Source: an uncultured Pelagibacteraceae bacterium (GTDB lineage: Bacteria > Pseudomonadota > Alphaproteobacteria > Pelagibacterales > Pelagibacteraceae). From it: DNA of 39,110 nucleotides. A program made the translations under genes and the position numbers. The stretch lies in NCBI GenBank assembly GCA_902587435.1, contig CACILF010000008.1:1-39110 (forward strand). Direction: 5' to 3'. Below, in pieces: positions 10,537-25,964 of this stretch. The notes under the pieces were generated by a model. It saw only the letters and a program-made list of their open reading frames with translations, was not told the origin of the DNA and did no database searches. Positions within the stretch are counted from its first letter, which is position 1, and each line of letters begins with the position of its first letter.

Positions 10537-11400
10537 ATGAAATTGAAAAAAATTATATTAAGCGTTTTTGCTTCAATATTTCTTTTTAGTTCAACTGTAT
10601 CAGCAGATACTATTAGAATTGCAACAGAGGGCGCATACCCTCCGTGGAATGATTCATCTGAAGACGGAAAACTAATTGGATTTGAAGTTGATCTTGCAAA
10701 CTGGCTTTGTATTTACATGCAAAGAGATTGCAAAATTGTAGCTCAAGACTGGGATGGAATGATTCCAGCGTTAAGAATGAGAAAATACGATGCTATTATG
10801 GCAGGTATGTCTATTACTGATGAAAGAAAAAAAGTAATAACTTTTTCTCAAGGTTATGCTGATGAAGTTGCATCTCTTGCAGTAATGAAAGGTTCTGATC
10901 TTGAAGGAATGTCTACACCAGAAGGTATAAATTTATCTTTAGGTGGTAAAGATGTTAAAGCTGCTCTTAAAACTATTACTGGAGCTTTAGCTGGCAAAAC
11001 TGTTTGTACTCAAACTGGAACTATTCACCAAAACTTTTTAGAGTCAGGTGATGTTGGATCAGTTGATGTTAGAACTTATAAAACTCAAGACGAAGTTAAC
11101 CTAGATTTATCAGCAGGTAGATGTGATGCAGCATTAGCTGCAGCAGTAGCATTTACTGATTATGCTGAAAAATCTGGAAAAGCTGTTGTGTTAGTTGGAC
11201 CAACTTTCTCTGGTGGACATTTTGGAAACGGAGTAGGTGTTGGTTTAAGACAAGAAGCACAATTTGGTTCAGACTCTGCTCTTGGAAAAAGAGACGCTCA
11301 ACTACTTAAAGATTTCAATAAAGCTATTGATCAAGCAAGAAAAGCTGGAAAAATTAGCGAACTTGCTACTAAGTGGTTTGGCTTTGACGCATCAATGTAA
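10537..11400 (+). CDS. polar amino acid ABC transporter, periplasmic substrate-binding protein
   Basis: 287 residues. Signal peptide of about 23 residues ending VSA, then DTIRIATEGAYPPWNDSSED, GFEVDLANWLC, WDGMIPALRMRKYDAIMAGM and SITDERKKVITFS. These are the hallmarks of family 3 solute-binding proteins of the HisJ/ArgT/OccT type, which bind lysine, arginine, ornithine, histidine or opines. The insertion near residues 125-145 is unlike short HisJ. It is followed by a 12-bp hairpin and then two permease genes. A strong Shine-Dalgarno AGGGG precedes the ATG. Placement after the polyamine operon makes a basic amino acid (polyamine precursor) substrate attractive, but that is inference. Confidence 0.88.
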   Translation: MKLKKIILSVFASIFLFSSTVSADTIRIATEGAYPPWNDSSEDGKLIGFEVDLANWLCIYMQRDCKIVAQDWDGMIPALRMRKYDAIMAGMSITDERKKVITFSQGYADEVASLAVMKGSDLEGMSTPEGINLSLGGKDVKAALKTITGALAGKTVCTQTGTIHQNFLESGDVGSVDVRTYKTQDEVNLDLSAGRCDAALAAAVAFTDYAEKSGKAVVLVGPTFSGGHFGNGVGVGLRQEAQFGSDSALGKRDAQLLKDFNKAIDQARKAGKISELATKWFGFDASM

Positions 11401-11410
11401 ATTTAAAATT

Positions 11411-11440
11411 TAAAAGGCGGTTTATTTTAACCGCCTTTTA
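11411..11440 (+). terminator. 12-bp hairpin between binding-protein and permease genes
   Basis: TAAAAGGCGGTT and AACCGCCTTTTA are perfect inverted arms around a 6-nt TATTTT loop. The 3' arm ends in TTTTA, as in an intrinsic terminator, yet the ATG of the permease gene follows after only 2 nt (11443). It probably lets most transcripts end or be stabilised after the binding-protein gene, with limited read-through to the permeases, a known way to make binding protein in excess. Confidence 0.85.
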
Positions 11441-11442
11441 CC

Positions 11443-12135
11443 ATGGACTTAATATCATTTGGAGATAACGGTTGGGGTGATGAGCTTTTTGTAGCCGCGC
11501 TTATGACAATTGCTGTTGCAATTGCAGCAATGCTTATTGGTTTTTTATTTGCATTAATATTTACACCTTTAAAACTCTCAAAATATAAAATTTTAAATTT
11601 AATTGCTAATTCTTACACCACAGTTGTTAGAGGTGTTCCCGAACTTTTAGTTATATATCTTTTCTTTTTTGGTGGAAGCGGTGCAATAATGTATGTTGCG
11701 CAAATTTTCGGCTATTACGATTATATAGAAATAAATGCATTTATTACTGGTGCCACATCAATTGGAATTATTTCTGGTGCTTATTCTACAGAAGTTTTTA
11801 GAGGAGCAATTCAATCAATAGACAAAGGCCAGTTCGAGGCTTGTCATGTTTTAGGTTTAAAAAAATATATATATTTTTTTAAAGTAATTATGCCTCAAAT
11901 GTTAAGGCTGGCAATACCGAATCTAAGCAATGTTTGGCAAATAACTTTAAAAGATACTTCTTTAATTTCGGTTACTGGATTAGTTGAAATTATGAGACAG
12001 TCTTATATTGCAGCTGGATCAACTAGAGATCCACTTTTCTTTTATTCTTTCGCAGCACTTTTATATTTAATACTTACTTTTTTGAGCATGAAATTAATTA
12101 ATAGATTAGAAAAAAATTATAGCAGAGGCTATTGA
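11443..12135 (+). CDS. polar amino acid ABC transporter permease (HisQ-like)
   Basis: 230 residues with about five hydrophobic helices (roughly 15-40, 55-80, 95-120, 150-175, 190-215). The permease signature for coupling to the ATPase is visible as GAIQSIDKGQFEACHVLGL (EAA motif), and TVVRGVPELLVIYLFFFG is typical of the HisQ branch. The start ATG follows a stable hairpin by 2 nt, leaving no room for a Shine-Dalgarno sequence; the next in-frame ATG is 20 codons later and would cut into helix 1, so 11443 is kept. It overlaps the next permease by 4 nt. Confidence 0.9.
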   Translation: MDLISFGDNGWGDELFVAALMTIAVAIAAMLIGFLFALIFTPLKLSKYKILNLIANSYTTVVRGVPELLVIYLFFFGGSGAIMYVAQIFGYYDYIEINAFITGATSIGIISGAYSTEVFRGAIQSIDKGQFEACHVLGLKKYIYFFKVIMPQMLRLAIPNLSNVWQITLKDTSLISVTGLVEIMRQSYIAAGSTRDPLFFYSFAALLYLILTFLSMKLINRLEKNYSRGY

Positions 12136-22109: not shown

Positions 22110-22935
22110 TTCAATTTTATCAAACGAATATTCTTTTTTTATTATTTTAATGATCCTAACAGCTTTTCCTGTAGGTTTTTTTGCTGGCTTATTTGGAATT
22201 GGAGGTGGGCTAATAACAGTTCCATTTCTATTTTTTATATTTGAAACTTTAAATATAGATAAATCTTATATAATGCACTTAGCAGTAGGTACTTCTTTTT
22301 CTATAATTATACCAACATCATTATCTTCTGTCTTAACTCATAAAAAAAATAATTATGTAGATTTTAATATAATTAAAACTTACATAATATTTGTAATAAT
22401 TGGAGTTTTGGCAGGCACTATTTTTGCTGCGTTAATGCGAACAAAAGGATTAGTTTTATTCTTTTCAGCAGTAGTTTACTTTTTAGGAACTTATTTACTA
22501 TTGAGTTCTAATAAAATCATTAATTCTAAAAAGAAATTTAATCTTTTATCAAGAATAATTGCAGGTTTAGTATCAGGGTTTATTTCTGCATCAATGGGAA
22601 TAGGAGGGGCAATAATGAACGTTCCTGTTCTAAAATATTTTGGTTATCCAATAAAGAAAGCAATTGGAAGTGCTGCCGCAATTGGATTAGTTATTGCAAT
22701 AGTGGGGGCTATTGGTTTTTTAATTTCAGGATCTTTTTTAGATGCTAATTTACCTTTAAGTATTGGATTTATAAATATTCCTGCATTTTTAATATTTATT
22801 CCAATTACTACTTTTATGGCAAGGGTTGGAGCAAATACTGTACATAGAATAGAAAAAACAAAAGTTCAGGCCTTCTTTGGAATATTTTTATATGTTGTCG
22901 GAACTATATTTATTTATAGATATTTAAATTTGTAA
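22102..22935 (+). CDS. TauE/SafE family membrane exporter
   Basis: 277 residues with about eight hydrophobic helices in two repeated halves. Each half starts with the family's glycine-rich motif: GFFAGLFGIGGGLITVPFLF near residue 25 and GFISASMGIGGAIMNVPVLK near 160. The family moves sulfite, sulfonates or other small anions across the inner membrane; the direction and substrate here are unknown. In a SAR11-like cell dependent on reduced sulfur compounds, sulfite export is a reasonable guess. TTG start supported by AGAAGG upstream. The coding end is followed after 8 nt by a GC-rich inverted repeat. Confidence 0.85.
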   Translation: MISSILSNEYSFFIILMILTAFPVGFFAGLFGIGGGLITVPFLFFIFETLNIDKSYIMHLAVGTSFSIIIPTSLSSVLTHKKNNYVDFNIIKTYIIFVIIGVLAGTIFAALMRTKGLVLFFSAVVYFLGTYLLLSSNKIINSKKKFNLLSRIIAGLVSGFISASMGIGGAIMNVPVLKYFGYPIKKAIGSAAAIGLVIAIVGAIGFLISGSFLDANLPLSIGFINIPAFLIFIPITTFMARVGANTVHRIEKTKVQAFFGIFLYVVGTIFIYRYLNL

Positions 22936-23156
22936 AAAAAAAGAGGCGGTTTCAGTCTCCCTCTACCGCCCCTTAATTTGCTTGTATTTGATTCTCTTAT
23001 AAAACTTAAACAATTAATACGTGTATATTATTATTATACAGAGCAAGGGAACTCTATTTTTCGCAACCAATCAATTAATAATTGCATAAAATATTTTTTT
23101 TTATTGCAATTAAGTTATCTTCATAGTGAATTAAATTAATTATAAATGGAGGGAAT
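22936..23156 (+). promoter_or_regulatory. intergenic leader region of the TRAP operon
   Basis: This is the largest non-coding stretch in the window. From left to right it holds the GC-rich hairpin after tauE, an AT-rich part, a small AGAG/CTCT hairpin with loop CAAGGGAA (about 23040-23055), an AT-rich imperfect hairpin with arms TAATTGCA/TGCAATTA (23079-23112), and a strong Shine-Dalgarno GGAGGG (23148-23153), 3 nt before the ATG of dctP. The promoter of dctPQM should lie here, but no clear -10/-35 pair can be fixed in such AT-rich DNA. Confidence 0.5.
22941..22974 (+). terminator. GC-rich inverted repeat after the TauE/SafE gene (probable terminator)
   Basis: GGCGGT (22945-22950) pairs with ACCGCC (22965-22970), extended across one A-C mismatch by AAG/CTT, around a 14-nt loop. 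A second pairing, AGAGG (22942-22946) with CCTCT (22960-22964), is also possible and shares bases with the first. The U-tract after it is weak (TTAATTT). It most likely ends the rpoZ-dusA-tauE transcript; the alternative pairing is described under findings. Confidence 0.55.
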
Positions 23157-24131
23157 ATGAAACTATTAAACAAATTATTAATAATATTTTTTGCATTCTT
23201 GCTAAATTCAAATTTCGCAATGTCAGCTGAAAAATGGGATATGGCTCTTGCTTATGGAGCTGGAAATTTTCATTCTGCAAACGCTACTGAATTTGCCAAA
23301 AATGTTACAGAAAAAAGTGGAGGCAAGTTAACTATTGTTGCTCACCCAGGGGGATCATTATACAAAGGTGGTGAAATTTTTAGAGCAGTTAGAACTGGCC
23401 AGGCTCAAATTGGAGAAAGGTTTATGTCGGCTCTTGGAAAAGAAGATCCTTTGTTAGAAGTTGACTCACAGCCATTTTTAGCAACTAGCTATGATGATGC
23501 TATGAAACTTTACCAAGCTTCAAAACAAGAAATTGTTAAAGGTCTTGATGCAAAAGGACTTGTATTCTTATACGCTGTCCCATGGCCAGCTCAGGGACTG
23601 TATAGTAAAAAAGAAATTAATAGTATTGCTGATCTTAAGGGTTTAAAATTTAGAGCTTACAACTCGGCAACAATAAGAATAGCTGAACTTACAGGAATGG
23701 CTCCAACAAAAATTGAAGCAGCTGAAATTAGTCAGGCTTTTTCAACTGGAGCTGTAGAAAGCATGATTACATCACCAACAACTGGTAAAAATAGTAAAAT
23801 TTGGGAAAATGGTGTTGGATATTTTTACGACATTGCAGCTTGGTTCCCGAAAAATATGGTGATCGTTAACAAAGACTCTTGGAACAAATTAGATTCTGCA
23901 ACTCAAAAACTTATTATGTCTGAAGCAGCGGTAGCTGAAAAAAAAGGCTGGGAATTATCAAAAAAAGGTAATGTAGCCGATAAAAAAGCTCTTGCAGATG
24001 CAGGTATGAAAGTTGGCAAAGTTAATTCAGCTTTAGAAAAACATTTTCAAAAAGTTGGAGCAACAATGGCTGATGAGTGGAAGGCAAAAGCTGGATCTAG
24101 AGGTGCTAGTGTCCTTGCAGCGTACAAATAA
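23157..24131 (+). CDS. dctP: TRAP transporter periplasmic substrate-binding protein
   Basis: 324 residues. Signal peptide of about 24 residues ending AMSA. AHPGGSLYKGGEIFRAVRTG, the DLKGLKFRAYNSAT block with the carboxylate-binding arginine (IADLKGLKFR), and EISQAFSTGAVESMITSPTT are typical of DctP family proteins that bind carboxylates or sulfonates in the periplasm and deliver them to the QM membrane complex. The ligand cannot be assigned. Strong GGAGGG ribosome site. Followed by a hairpin that ends 2 nt before dctQ. Confidence 0.92.
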   Translation: MKLLNKLLIIFFAFLLNSNFAMSAEKWDMALAYGAGNFHSANATEFAKNVTEKSGGKLTIVAHPGGSLYKGGEIFRAVRTGQAQIGERFMSALGKEDPLLEVDSQPFLATSYDDAMKLYQASKQEIVKGLDAKGLVFLYAVPWPAQGLYSKKEINSIADLKGLKFRAYNSATIRIAELTGMAPTKIEAAEISQAFSTGAVESMITSPTTGKNSKIWENGVGYFYDIAAWFPKNMVIVNKDSWNKLDSATQKLIMSEAAVAEKKGWELSKKGNVADKKALADAGMKVGKVNSALEKHFQKVGATMADEWKAKAGSRGASVLAAYK

Positions 24132-24143
24132 AATTAATATAAT

Positions 24144-24174
24144 TAAAAAGGCCGTTAACTAGACGGCCTTTTTA
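24144..24174 (+). terminator. 12-bp hairpin between dctP and dctQ
   Basis: TAAAAAGGCCGT and ACGGCCTTTTTA form perfect arms around a 7-nt loop, TAACTAG. The 3' arm ends in a T5 run as in an intrinsic terminator, but the dctQ ATG follows at 24176. The design matches the hairpin at 11411-11440 in the ABC operon. Likely role: partial termination or 3'-end protection so that binding protein exceeds membrane protein. Confidence 0.85.
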
Positions 24175-24175
24175 T

Positions 24176-24664
24176 ATGTTTAAACTAAACAATAATCTAA
24201 AAAGTATTTACAAATATTCAGGATATATAGCTGCTTTTTTTTTAATTTTGGTAGCTGGTTTTATTTTAATTGGAATAGCTTCAAGAATTTTTGGTTTCTA
24301 TATTAGAGGCTTAGCAGAGTATTCAGGATACTGTATGGCTGCATCTTCATTTTTTGCTTTAGCATATACTTTTGTTGAAGGAGGTCATATACGAATTACG
24401 CTTTTCTTAGAAAAAATAGAAGGCAATAAAAAAAAATATTTAGAAACTTGGTGTTTAATGATTGCCAGTTTTTTTTCAGGTTACTTAGCGTTCTATTTTA
24501 TTAAAATGCTTATAATATCTTATAAATTTCAAGAAAGAAGTGAAGGAGCTGATGAAATATTGGTTTGGATACCCCAAACTAGTGTTGCGATTGGTTCAAC
24601 AGTTTTTTTTGTATGTGTTCTTCATCAATTTATTTTAACAATTTTAAATAAATCTAATGCCTGA
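24176..24664 (+). CDS. dctQ: TRAP transporter small membrane subunit
   Basis: 162 residues with four membrane helices (about 15-37, 49-68, 88-110, 130-152). GIASRIFGFYIRGLAEYSGY and FVEGGHIRITLFLEKIEG are DctQ-type features (conserved E-x-x-x-Y region and G-H-I-R-I). It forms the membrane complex with DctM. The ATG is 1-2 nt downstream of a stable hairpin, so it has no Shine-Dalgarno site unless the hairpin opens or the RNA is processed. Overlaps dctM by 8 nt. Confidence 0.9.
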   Translation: MFKLNNNLKSIYKYSGYIAAFFLILVAGFILIGIASRIFGFYIRGLAEYSGYCMAASSFFALAYTFVEGGHIRITLFLEKIEGNKKKYLETWCLMIASFFSGYLAFYFIKMLIISYKFQERSEGADEILVWIPQTSVAIGSTVFFVCVLHQFILTILNKSNA

Positions 24665-25964
24665 AATTTTATTAACAATTTTTTTTATTACTGTTCTATT
24701 ATTTTTTTTAGGAAGCGGAATTTGGGTTGCAATAAGCATGATTGGCGTTTCTACAATAGGAATGATACTTTTTACATCTAGACCAGTTGGTGATGCGATG
24801 GCCACAACAATATGGGGAACTGCATCTTCTTGGACTTTGACAGCATTACCTCTTTTTGTATGGATGGGAGAAATTCTTTTTAGAACAAGATTATCTGAAA
24901 ATTTATTTAAAGGTCTATCACCTTGGATGCAAAGGCTTCCCGGTGGATTAATTCATGTGAACGTAGTTGGATGTGCCCTTTTTGCGGCTATTTCAGGATC
25001 ATCAGCTGCAACAGTTGCAACAGTTGGGAAAATGTCAATTCCAGAACTTAGAAAAAGAAAATACCCAGAAAAAATATTACTTGGCAGTTTAGCAGGCTCT
25101 GGAACTTTAGGATTATTGATACCACCTTCAATTATTTTAATCATTTATGGTGTGACTGTACAAGAATCTATAGCAAAATTGTTTATAGCAGGAATTTTTC
25201 CTGGAATAATGATTGCTTTGATTTTTATGTCATATGTAATCATTTGGTCACTAGCAAATAATAAAATTATGCCAAAAGTGCATGAAACATCTTCTTTTTT
25301 AGATAAAGTTAAAAAATCAAAACAGTTGCTGCCTGTGATCCTGTTAATATTAGGTGTGATTGGTTCAATATATACTGGTGTAGCAACAGCCACCGAAGCA
25401 GCATCTTTGGGTGTAGTTGGAGCACTTACTTTATCTTACTTTCAAAAAAGTTTGAATTTAAAAACTTTTAAGGAATCTTTATTAGGAGCGACAAAAACTT
25501 CTTGCATGATTGCTTTTATTTTAGCAGGCTCAACATTTTTATCTCTTGCGATGGGCTTTACAGGTCTTCCAAGAAATTTAGCGATTTGGATACAAGAAAT
25601 GAGTCTATCTCCATATGCATTAATTTTTGTTTTAACTATATTTTATATCATTTTGGGAATGTTTTTGGACGGAATATCAGCTGTTGTTTTAACAATGGCA
25701 ATCATAGAGCCAATGATTAGACAAGCTGGCTTCGATATGATTTGGTTTGGTATTTTCTTAGTTGTAGTTGTTGAAATGGCGCAAATCACTCCACCAGTAG
25801 GTTTTAATTTGTTCGTACTTCAAGGTATGGCTGGCAAAGATATGGGTTATATTGCAAAAAGCGCATTTCCTCTTTTTCTACTAATGGTATTAGCTGTAAT
25901 AATCATAATAATATTCCCTGAAATTGCTCTATGGCTTCCCAATCAAATGATTCAAAAAATATAA
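24657..25964 (+). CDS. dctM: TRAP transporter large membrane subunit
   Basis: 435 residues, about 12 helices. LPLFVWMGEILFRTRLSENL, AAISGSSAATVATVGKMSIP, GSLAGSGTLGLLIPPSIILI and ITPPVGFNLFVLQG are signature stretches of DctM (ion transporter superfamily), which uses the sodium gradient to import the substrate handed over by DctP. It completes the dctPQM operon. Its TAA is immediately followed by the stop of the convergent phosphohexomutase gene with no base between them. Confidence 0.93.
   Translation: MPEILLTIFFITVLLFFLGSGIWVAISMIGVSTIGMILFTSRPVGDAMATTIWGTASSWTLTALPLFVWMGEILFRTRLSENLFKGLSPWMQRLPGGLIHVNVVGCALFAAISGSSAATVATVGKMSIPELRKRKYPEKILLGSLAGSGTLGLLIPPSIILIIYGVTVQESIAKLFIAGIFPGIMIALIFMSYVIIWSLANNKIMPKVHETSSFLDKVKKSKQLLPVILLILGVIGSIYTGVATATEAASLGVVGALTLSYFQKSLNLKTFKESLLGATKTSCMIAFILAGSTFLSLAMGFTGLPRNLAIWIQEMSLSPYALIFVLTIFYIILGMFLDGISAVVLTMAIIEPMIRQAGFDMIWFGIFLVVVVEMAQITPPVGFNLFVLQGMAGKDMGYIAKSAFPLFLLMVLAVIIIIIFPEIALWLPNQMIQKI

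Follow-up and report, generated by a model that had tools for sequence, protein, structure and literature searches.

Most solute-binding protein (SBP) genes of SAR11 bacteria are followed by a conserved, SBP-specific hairpin that begins a near-constant distance past the stop codon, and most SBP genes that carry it have a Shine-Dalgarno motif that nearly all genes behind the hairpin lack. The case that led to this pattern lies between dctP and dctQ of a TRAP transporter operon, where the stem stops one nucleotide short of the dctQ start codon. Most likely, to judge from the sequence comparisons below, the hairpin lets the cell make far more binding protein than membrane channel. We give a probability of about two in three to its being an expression-ratio element that would combine mRNA protection, partial termination and occlusion of the next start.

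Results

The window analysed here is a stretch of 39,110 nt from a contig of an uncultured Pelagibacteraceae bacterium, with a G+C content of 28.8%; the TRAP and ABC operon features described lie on its + strand. Gene dctP (23157..24131) encodes a TRAP-type solute-binding protein of 324 aa (Pfam DctP PF03480, E 7.8e-39), and the letters ahead of its start (ATG 23157) read GGAGGG, a Shine-Dalgarno motif, at 23148..23153. Behind it lie dctQ (24176..24664), an open reading frame of 162 aa named as the small TRAP membrane subunit from position, size and context, which has no Shine-Dalgarno motif at -20 to -4, and the overlapping open reading frame dctM (24657..25964; 435 aa), presumably the large TRAP membrane subunit from its position and sequence. 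The best relatives of DctP in named records (80 of 403 relatives kept) belong to Pelagibacteraceae, Pelagibacterales and Ca. Pelagibacter, with identities up to 100%, which upholds the SAR11 assignment of the initial annotation, and a search of DctP against viral contigs returned no relative. DctQ has relatives in 27 of 61 same-genus genomes, its own included. Upstream of dctP, a GC-rich stem with a long loop (22940-22975) follows the gene that ends at 22935; it is weakly above shuffles in stability (z -1.96; 9 of 200 as stable) and is perhaps the end of the preceding transcript.

The intercistronic stem-loop (24144..24174) starts 12 nt past the dctP stop and ends 1 nt ahead of the dctQ ATG. 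It is, as the initial annotation had it, a perfect stem of 12 bp with a 7-nt loop, separated from the ATG at 24176 by base 24175 alone; the folding program makes it 13 bp with a 5-nt loop if a further inner pair of the U.G/U.A type is counted. Its minimum free energy is -17.2 kcal/mol (z -5.6), and none of 200 dinucleotide shuffles was as stable. A T-run, TTTTT (24169..24173), forms the 3´ base of the stem; it was listed as terminator-like and may be the U-tract of a weak intrinsic terminator. A known RNA family as the identity of the stem was rejected, as Rfam 15 gave 0 matches at gathering score within the window.

The same design had been proposed for a second boundary between a binding protein and the first membrane gene, and this sister stem is real. 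It lies at 11411..11440, 10 nt past the stop of a gene for an amino-acid-type ABC binding protein (SBP_bac_3, 287 aa, 10537..11400; PF00497, E 5.2e-34) and 2 nt ahead of the ATG at 11443 of the first ABC permease gene of that operon, an open reading frame at 11443..12135. Its stability is -16.6 kcal/mol, with a z of -4.1 for the 73-nt context. By the criteria used, strong hairpins occur at 2 of the 26 evaluable co-directional junctions of the window. They are the two stems described here, each behind a gene that Pfam assigns to an SBP family (DctP and SBP_bac_3).

Both stems are conserved among relatives. All 29 same-genus DctQ junctions examined have a stem of 9-16 bp before the start (no threshold set; the fragment L026 left out). 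Under a strict rule, and with an order-wide draw added, it is present in 44 of 45 DctQ-type junctions (a set without L026-L031 and L234) and ends -2 to 8 nt from the start in 42; the sole miss, L006, is due to a mismatch in the stem. Four of these 45 come from two genomes of another genus in the same family (L230, L231, L239, L240), and seven represent a second, distant TRAP operon (including L235-L238 and L233) with the stem 6 nt from the start. This second operon (L028-L031, L235-L237) carries its own stem, of the ACCCCGCAC type, 6 nt before the membrane-gene ATG. In the 80 named Pelagibacteraceae/Pelagibacterales records, which were picked from 403 relatives and, as they overlap the genomes of the other counts, are not an independent sample, 78 dctP-dctQ junctions have the stem 8-21 nt past the stop, and in 76 of the 80 its end lies 0-8 nt ahead of the start; the two stemless loci have a long-loop stem visible by eye. 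For the ABC junction, 43 close relatives (E < 1e-100) were listed among 61 genomes of the genus, and the best 30 were inspected. All 30 loci have the stem, and its end lies 2-8 nt ahead of the ATG.

The stems carry compensatory changes. In an alignment of 26 of the 27 distinct dctPQ junctions (L008 left out), 98.9% of cells are paired. Both partners have changed in 6 of 11 pairs, a number that 7 of 500 shuffles attain, and 42 cells show such double changes. Covariation scores 0.405, compared with 0.164 for shuffled alignments, with 0 of 500 as high and at most 0.182 when the partner is slid. The 27 distinct ABC junctions gave 96.7% paired cells, both-side changes in 5 of 9 pairs (12 of 500 shuffles reach 5) and a score of 0.304 against 0.151 (0 of 500 as high; at most 0.123 when slid). 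The count of further pair types was not above shuffles in either alignment. In dctPQ the core AAGGCC/GGCCTT is nearly constant and the upper stem covaries, with an A-U to U-A swap at two pairs outside the core in 7-8 sequences; the dctQ ATG is invariant. Both alignments together hold 20 G.U cells versus 3 A.C cells, an excess that points to RNA transcribed from this strand. Covariation and G.U excess thus argue that the stem-loop between the cistrons is kept by selection as an RNA structure.

The initial annotation had proposed to look for stems of 10 bp or more whose end falls 0-5 nt ahead of a start codon, as a check on enrichment after SBP genes, and the answer is positive. The material was the window together with 60 segments, each of 20 kb, taken from two genomes of the genus. 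Such stems precede 4 of the 1202 starts, each time behind an SBP gene (4 of the 11 post-SBP starts versus 0 of 1191 others, Fisher p 3.8e-9; shuffled sequence 0), and without the window's own two cases, which prompted the finding, 2 of 9 post-SBP starts are positive. SBPs in the sampled stretches were picked by N-terminal sequence; Pfam confirmed 8 in genome G012 and 2 in the window, and those of genome G027 rest on the N-terminal sequence, such that an overlooked SBP there counts as non-SBP. The hairpin is recurrent rather than a product of chance, as had been supposed: shuffled sequence has none, and the SBP genes that bear it belong to six Pfam families (SBP_bac_1, 3 and 5, DctP, Peripla_BP_6 and NMT1).

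In six genomes and four SBP Pfam families, a strong hairpin follows 51 of 61 SBP genes, 47 of 56 with a co-directional next gene and 4 of 5 without, counts that are not independent events since many of these genes are orthologs. Among gaps of 35-100 nt, a hairpin is present in 47 of 51 after SBP genes, versus 6 of the 117 that follow other genes in the sampled stretches. The 61 genes derive from 68 SBP-family matches. One (L179) was dropped as its locus holds no stop codon, and six (L180, L184, L185, L187, L188 and L189), hairpin-free partial matches to PF13458, one of them below the cut-off, were set aside; we take these six to be LpoA-like and not transporter SBPs, and with them the count is 51 of 67. 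Hairpin-less SBP genes are L128-L130, L148, L165, L166, L170, L172, L178 and L181; in L178 and L181 a stem is visible with a loop above the 11-nt limit. They include one SBP_bac_3 type (L128-L130) and an SBP_bac_1 type of ~350 aa (L165, L166, L170, L172), which perhaps transports iron.

Outside the order, 29 DctP loci of other alphaproteobacterial families were inspected (L137, from the genome of the window itself, left out). A stem lies within -10 to +90 of the stop in 15 of the 29, two of these inside the next gene, and z is -3 or lower in 9 of the 29 regions. In the loci where the start comes after the stem, 18-230 nt lie between the two; the one exception is L205 (8 nt before the start, 66 nt after the stop, z 0). 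Those genomes are mostly GC-rich, so that the counts are weak evidence for or against a wider spread.

The hairpin keeps its distance from the stop codon and not from the next start. At the 47 co-directional SBP junctions with a hairpin, the stem begins 9-33 nt past the SBP stop (standard deviation 5.4), and the next start lies anywhere between -12 and 44 nt from its end (standard deviation 13.2), where the -12 nt (L162) relies on an ATG within the stem, an alternative called start lying 18 nt past the stem. The start distances form two groups, with 19 of 47 at -12 to 8 nt and 28 of 47 at 14-44 nt. A fixed distance from the stop and a variable one from the start mark the hairpin as an end element of the SBP gene. 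The hairpin-on-start-codon design put forward in the initial annotation is thus kept within the dctPQ and ABC ortholog groups but fails across SBP operons, and a start-abutting stem was rejected as the general rule. The term SBP 3´ hairpin, with the start-abutting stems as a subclass, describes the element better. Only 1 of 16 hairpins after non-SBP genes comes less than 15 nt from a start, so compaction alone is not a ready explanation of the abutting group.

The second constant feature is found at the other end of the SBP gene. With the Shine-Dalgarno motif defined as GGAG, GAGG or AGGA at -20 to -4, 40 of 45 SBP genes (the 47 with a hairpin minus two without a usable start) have it, versus 1 of the 47 genes that follow the hairpins and none of the 19 that follow abutting ones. 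The motif precedes 14.6% of 1250 called genes (shuffled 7.3%), a figure that is if anything high because the gene caller prefers starts with such a motif. In the sampled stretches and the window together, 11 of 13 SBP genes and 166 of 1179 others have it, and none of the 10 following genes does. All 78 evaluable dctP genes of the named loci have it as well. Across three series of loci (the sampled loci L062-L121, the SBP loci L122-L177 and the dctP loci L241-L320), the motif is rare overall (~14% of called genes) and nearly universal before SBP genes. A motif before and a hairpin after mark the SBP cistron at both ends, and the membrane gene at neither. Of the 570 genes whose upstream spacer measures 20 nt or more, 55 have a strong Shine-Dalgarno motif, and the motif also precedes other probably highly expressed genes; judged from their N-termini, the non-SBP genes with a strong motif include presumable genes for chaperonins, acyl carrier protein, the ATP synthase c subunit and a proteorhodopsin.

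A T-run at the 3´ side of the stem is far less constant. Counted over distinct orthologs, a run of at least four T is present in 18 of 26 at the dctPQ junction and in 2 of 27 at the ABC junction; among hairpins of the named dctPQ loci, 47 of 78 have one and 31 of 78 do not. After SBP genes in general the T-run is present in 19 of 28 non-abutting and 10 of 19 abutting hairpins, with no difference between the two groups (p 0.37, n=47). The stem itself is retained without a U-run in most ABC orthologs and in one dctPQ clade, in which the A-U to U-A swaps affect pairs beyond the GC core. The A-run/GC/T-run layout of intrinsic terminators, to which the initial annotation had likened both stems, therefore holds for the two stems of this genome and is not conserved among the orthologs. 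As the stem persists where the U-run has been lost, termination is not the whole function, and the element is not simply a terminator.

Discussion

We propose that the stem-loop is a 3´ end element of the dctP cistron, and of SBP cistrons in general, that would raise SBP output over that of the membrane subunits in up to three ways. Once the downstream part of the transcript is cut or released, the stem may shield the dctP mRNA against 3´-to-5´ exonucleases. Together with a U-run, such as the TTTTT of this genome, it could terminate a share of the transcripts, although termination is weak where the U-run is absent. Finally, a stem inside the ribosome landing site of dctQ, which lacks a Shine-Dalgarno motif, might keep translation of dctQM low. 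From the size of the ribosome footprint, the stem should just be cleared by a ribosome halted at the dctP stop codon and would overlap with a 30S subunit bound at the dctQ ATG. Counting against the expression-ratio reading, 10 of the 61 SBP genes are hairpin-less by the criteria used, and so stable a stem against the ATG might silence dctQ altogether, although the invariance of the ATG means that dctQ must be translated somehow.

Each of these activities could in principle account for the element by itself. If the hairpin were an intrinsic terminator only, polymerase would stop in a fixed fraction of passes, and this alone would set the ratio of SBP to permease. Such a terminator would fit the TTTTT that follows the GC stem in the window, the T-runs of the majority of dctPQ hairpins (18 of 26 orthologs; 47 of 78 named loci) and of both abutting and non-abutting SBP hairpins, and the presence of a hairpin after 4 of 5 SBP genes with a non-co-directional neighbour; termination after SBP genes has also been shown in the Ruminiclostridium operons described in the part of Wu et al. 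(PMC9045158) drawn on here. The reading is weakened by the ABC orthologs, most of which, like one dctPQ clade, keep the stem without the T-run (2 of 27 have it, yet all 30 loci have the stem), as well as by the 31 T-run-less dctPQ hairpins, and a stem-loop without its U-tract failed to stop transcription in the experiments reported in that part of PMC9045158. We consider termination alone unlikely. Control of dctQ translation alone, through occlusion of its start codon by a hairpin that a cold-shock protein or another factor might open, would be in line with the closeness of stem and start in dctPQ and ABC junctions (a distance of 0-8 nt at 76 of the 80 named dctPQ loci, of -2 to 8 nt at 42 of the 45 DctQ-type junctions and of 2-8 nt at all 30 ABC loci), with the missing Shine-Dalgarno motif in the 19 abutting cases and with the single hairpin in 16 after non-SBP genes that comes so near a start. 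Occlusion cannot be the common function, however, as 28 of 47 SBP hairpins sit 14-44 nt from the start and others follow SBP genes that have no co-directional next gene, and we regard it as distinctly improbable as the only role.

The palindrome might instead act in the DNA, as the binding site of a regulator or as part of an internal promoter region. Palindromes are able to bind proteins, and a TATAAT stands directly ahead of the stem at 24138-24143. This hexamer is found at that place in 8 of 26 dctPQ orthologs and 0 of 27 ABC orthologs, and for this lack of conservation an internal dctQM promoter, which would count against the expression-ratio reading, was set aside as improbable; the wobble pairs, moreover, favour the transcribed strand, and the distance after the stop codon is fixed. 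A DNA-level role is therefore most improbable. A more speculative extension of the expression-ratio reading, and an improbable one, is that the abutting hairpin serves as two-sided punctuation, where a cut just 3´ of the stem would yield at once a protected 3´ end of the SBP message and a leaderless mRNA for the membrane gene. The leaderless message would then begin 0-8 nt before the AUG and be translated without a Shine-Dalgarno motif, and some 45 nt would suffice to set the stoichiometry of a transporter and to segregate motif-led from leaderless translation with no protein regulator.

The element is best read as a variant of known intercistronic hairpins. The closest system in the literature, as far as described in the part of the report compared here, is that of the ABC importer operons of Ruminiclostridium cellulolyticum, which have internal terminators downstream of SBP genes; termination was demonstrated and proposed to set the ratio of SBP to translocator, and at least 15 stem-loops were predicted downstream of E. 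coli SBP genes (Wu et al., 2022; PMC9045158). In both types, the SBP gene that heads the operon is directly followed by a stable stem-loop with a long stem and, where a 3´ U-tract is present, this pairs with 5´ sequence and is weaker than in ordinary terminators. In SAR11, unlike in the operons of that report, TRAP operons have the hairpins too, stems that reach up to the next ATG are frequent, a U-run is missing from many orthologs, and the hairpin is coupled, so far as the DNA letters tell, to a Shine-Dalgarno motif that the SBP gene has and its successor lacks. A term search of the accessible text of PMC9045158 gave no occurrence of 'start codon', 'ribosome' or 'translation'. The puf operon of Rhodobacter is likewise an alphaproteobacterial operon with an intercistronic hairpin, and segmental mRNA stability contributes to its stoichiometry (Klug et al., 1987, as cited in PMC6238624); it differs in that it carries photosynthesis genes and, in the citing text, has mapped RNase E sites. 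In E. coli, conserved RNA structures protect regions of operon transcripts from decay, and differences in ribosome density also take part in this programmed differential mRNA decay (Dar and Sorek, 2018; PMC5927463). According to the portion of that work used here, those structures generally lie inside protein-coding regions, whereas the SAR11 hairpin is intergenic.

Among the literature matches listed (titles and abstracts, with most subscription journals outside the scope), there was no account of this element in SAR11, and the pairing of Shine-Dalgarno motif and hairpin was not found in the portions of the papers compared. A search of Ca. P. ubique was directed at long GC-rich intergenic regions (PMC2704228, from the part consulted), and junctions of 45 nt would presumably have been passed over for that reason. 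Under iron limitation, the sfuC, sfuB and sfuA transcripts rose 16.0-, 10.4- and 5.0-fold, and SfuB gave no peptides, which was ascribed in part to poor recovery of membrane proteins (PMC2864753, from the part consulted); these data are no test of the hairpin.

SAR11 relies on binding-protein transporters, and how a streamlined genome obtains a surplus of binding protein over channel from one operon is a practical open question. The rule that emerges, a Shine-Dalgarno motif before the gene, a hairpin 9-33 nt after it and a next start without the motif, is readable in any such genome. It predicts which transporters are SBP-heavy and can be checked against metatranscriptomes and metaproteomes. 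Stems that survive without a U-run offer a natural comparison for separating RNA protection from termination, and the pairing of motif and hairpin is the part most deserving of tests.

Hairpins were also seen at two other kinds of gene. In two genomes (L085 at ~910 and L119 after 15860), a gene that we take from its N-terminus to be proteorhodopsin-like is followed by a hairpin of 17-18 bp with a T-run and then by a ferredoxin-like region. In L064, at ~7568, a 9-bp hairpin follows an atpE-like gene (ATP synthase c subunit) with a strong Shine-Dalgarno motif and overlaps the called start of the next gene.
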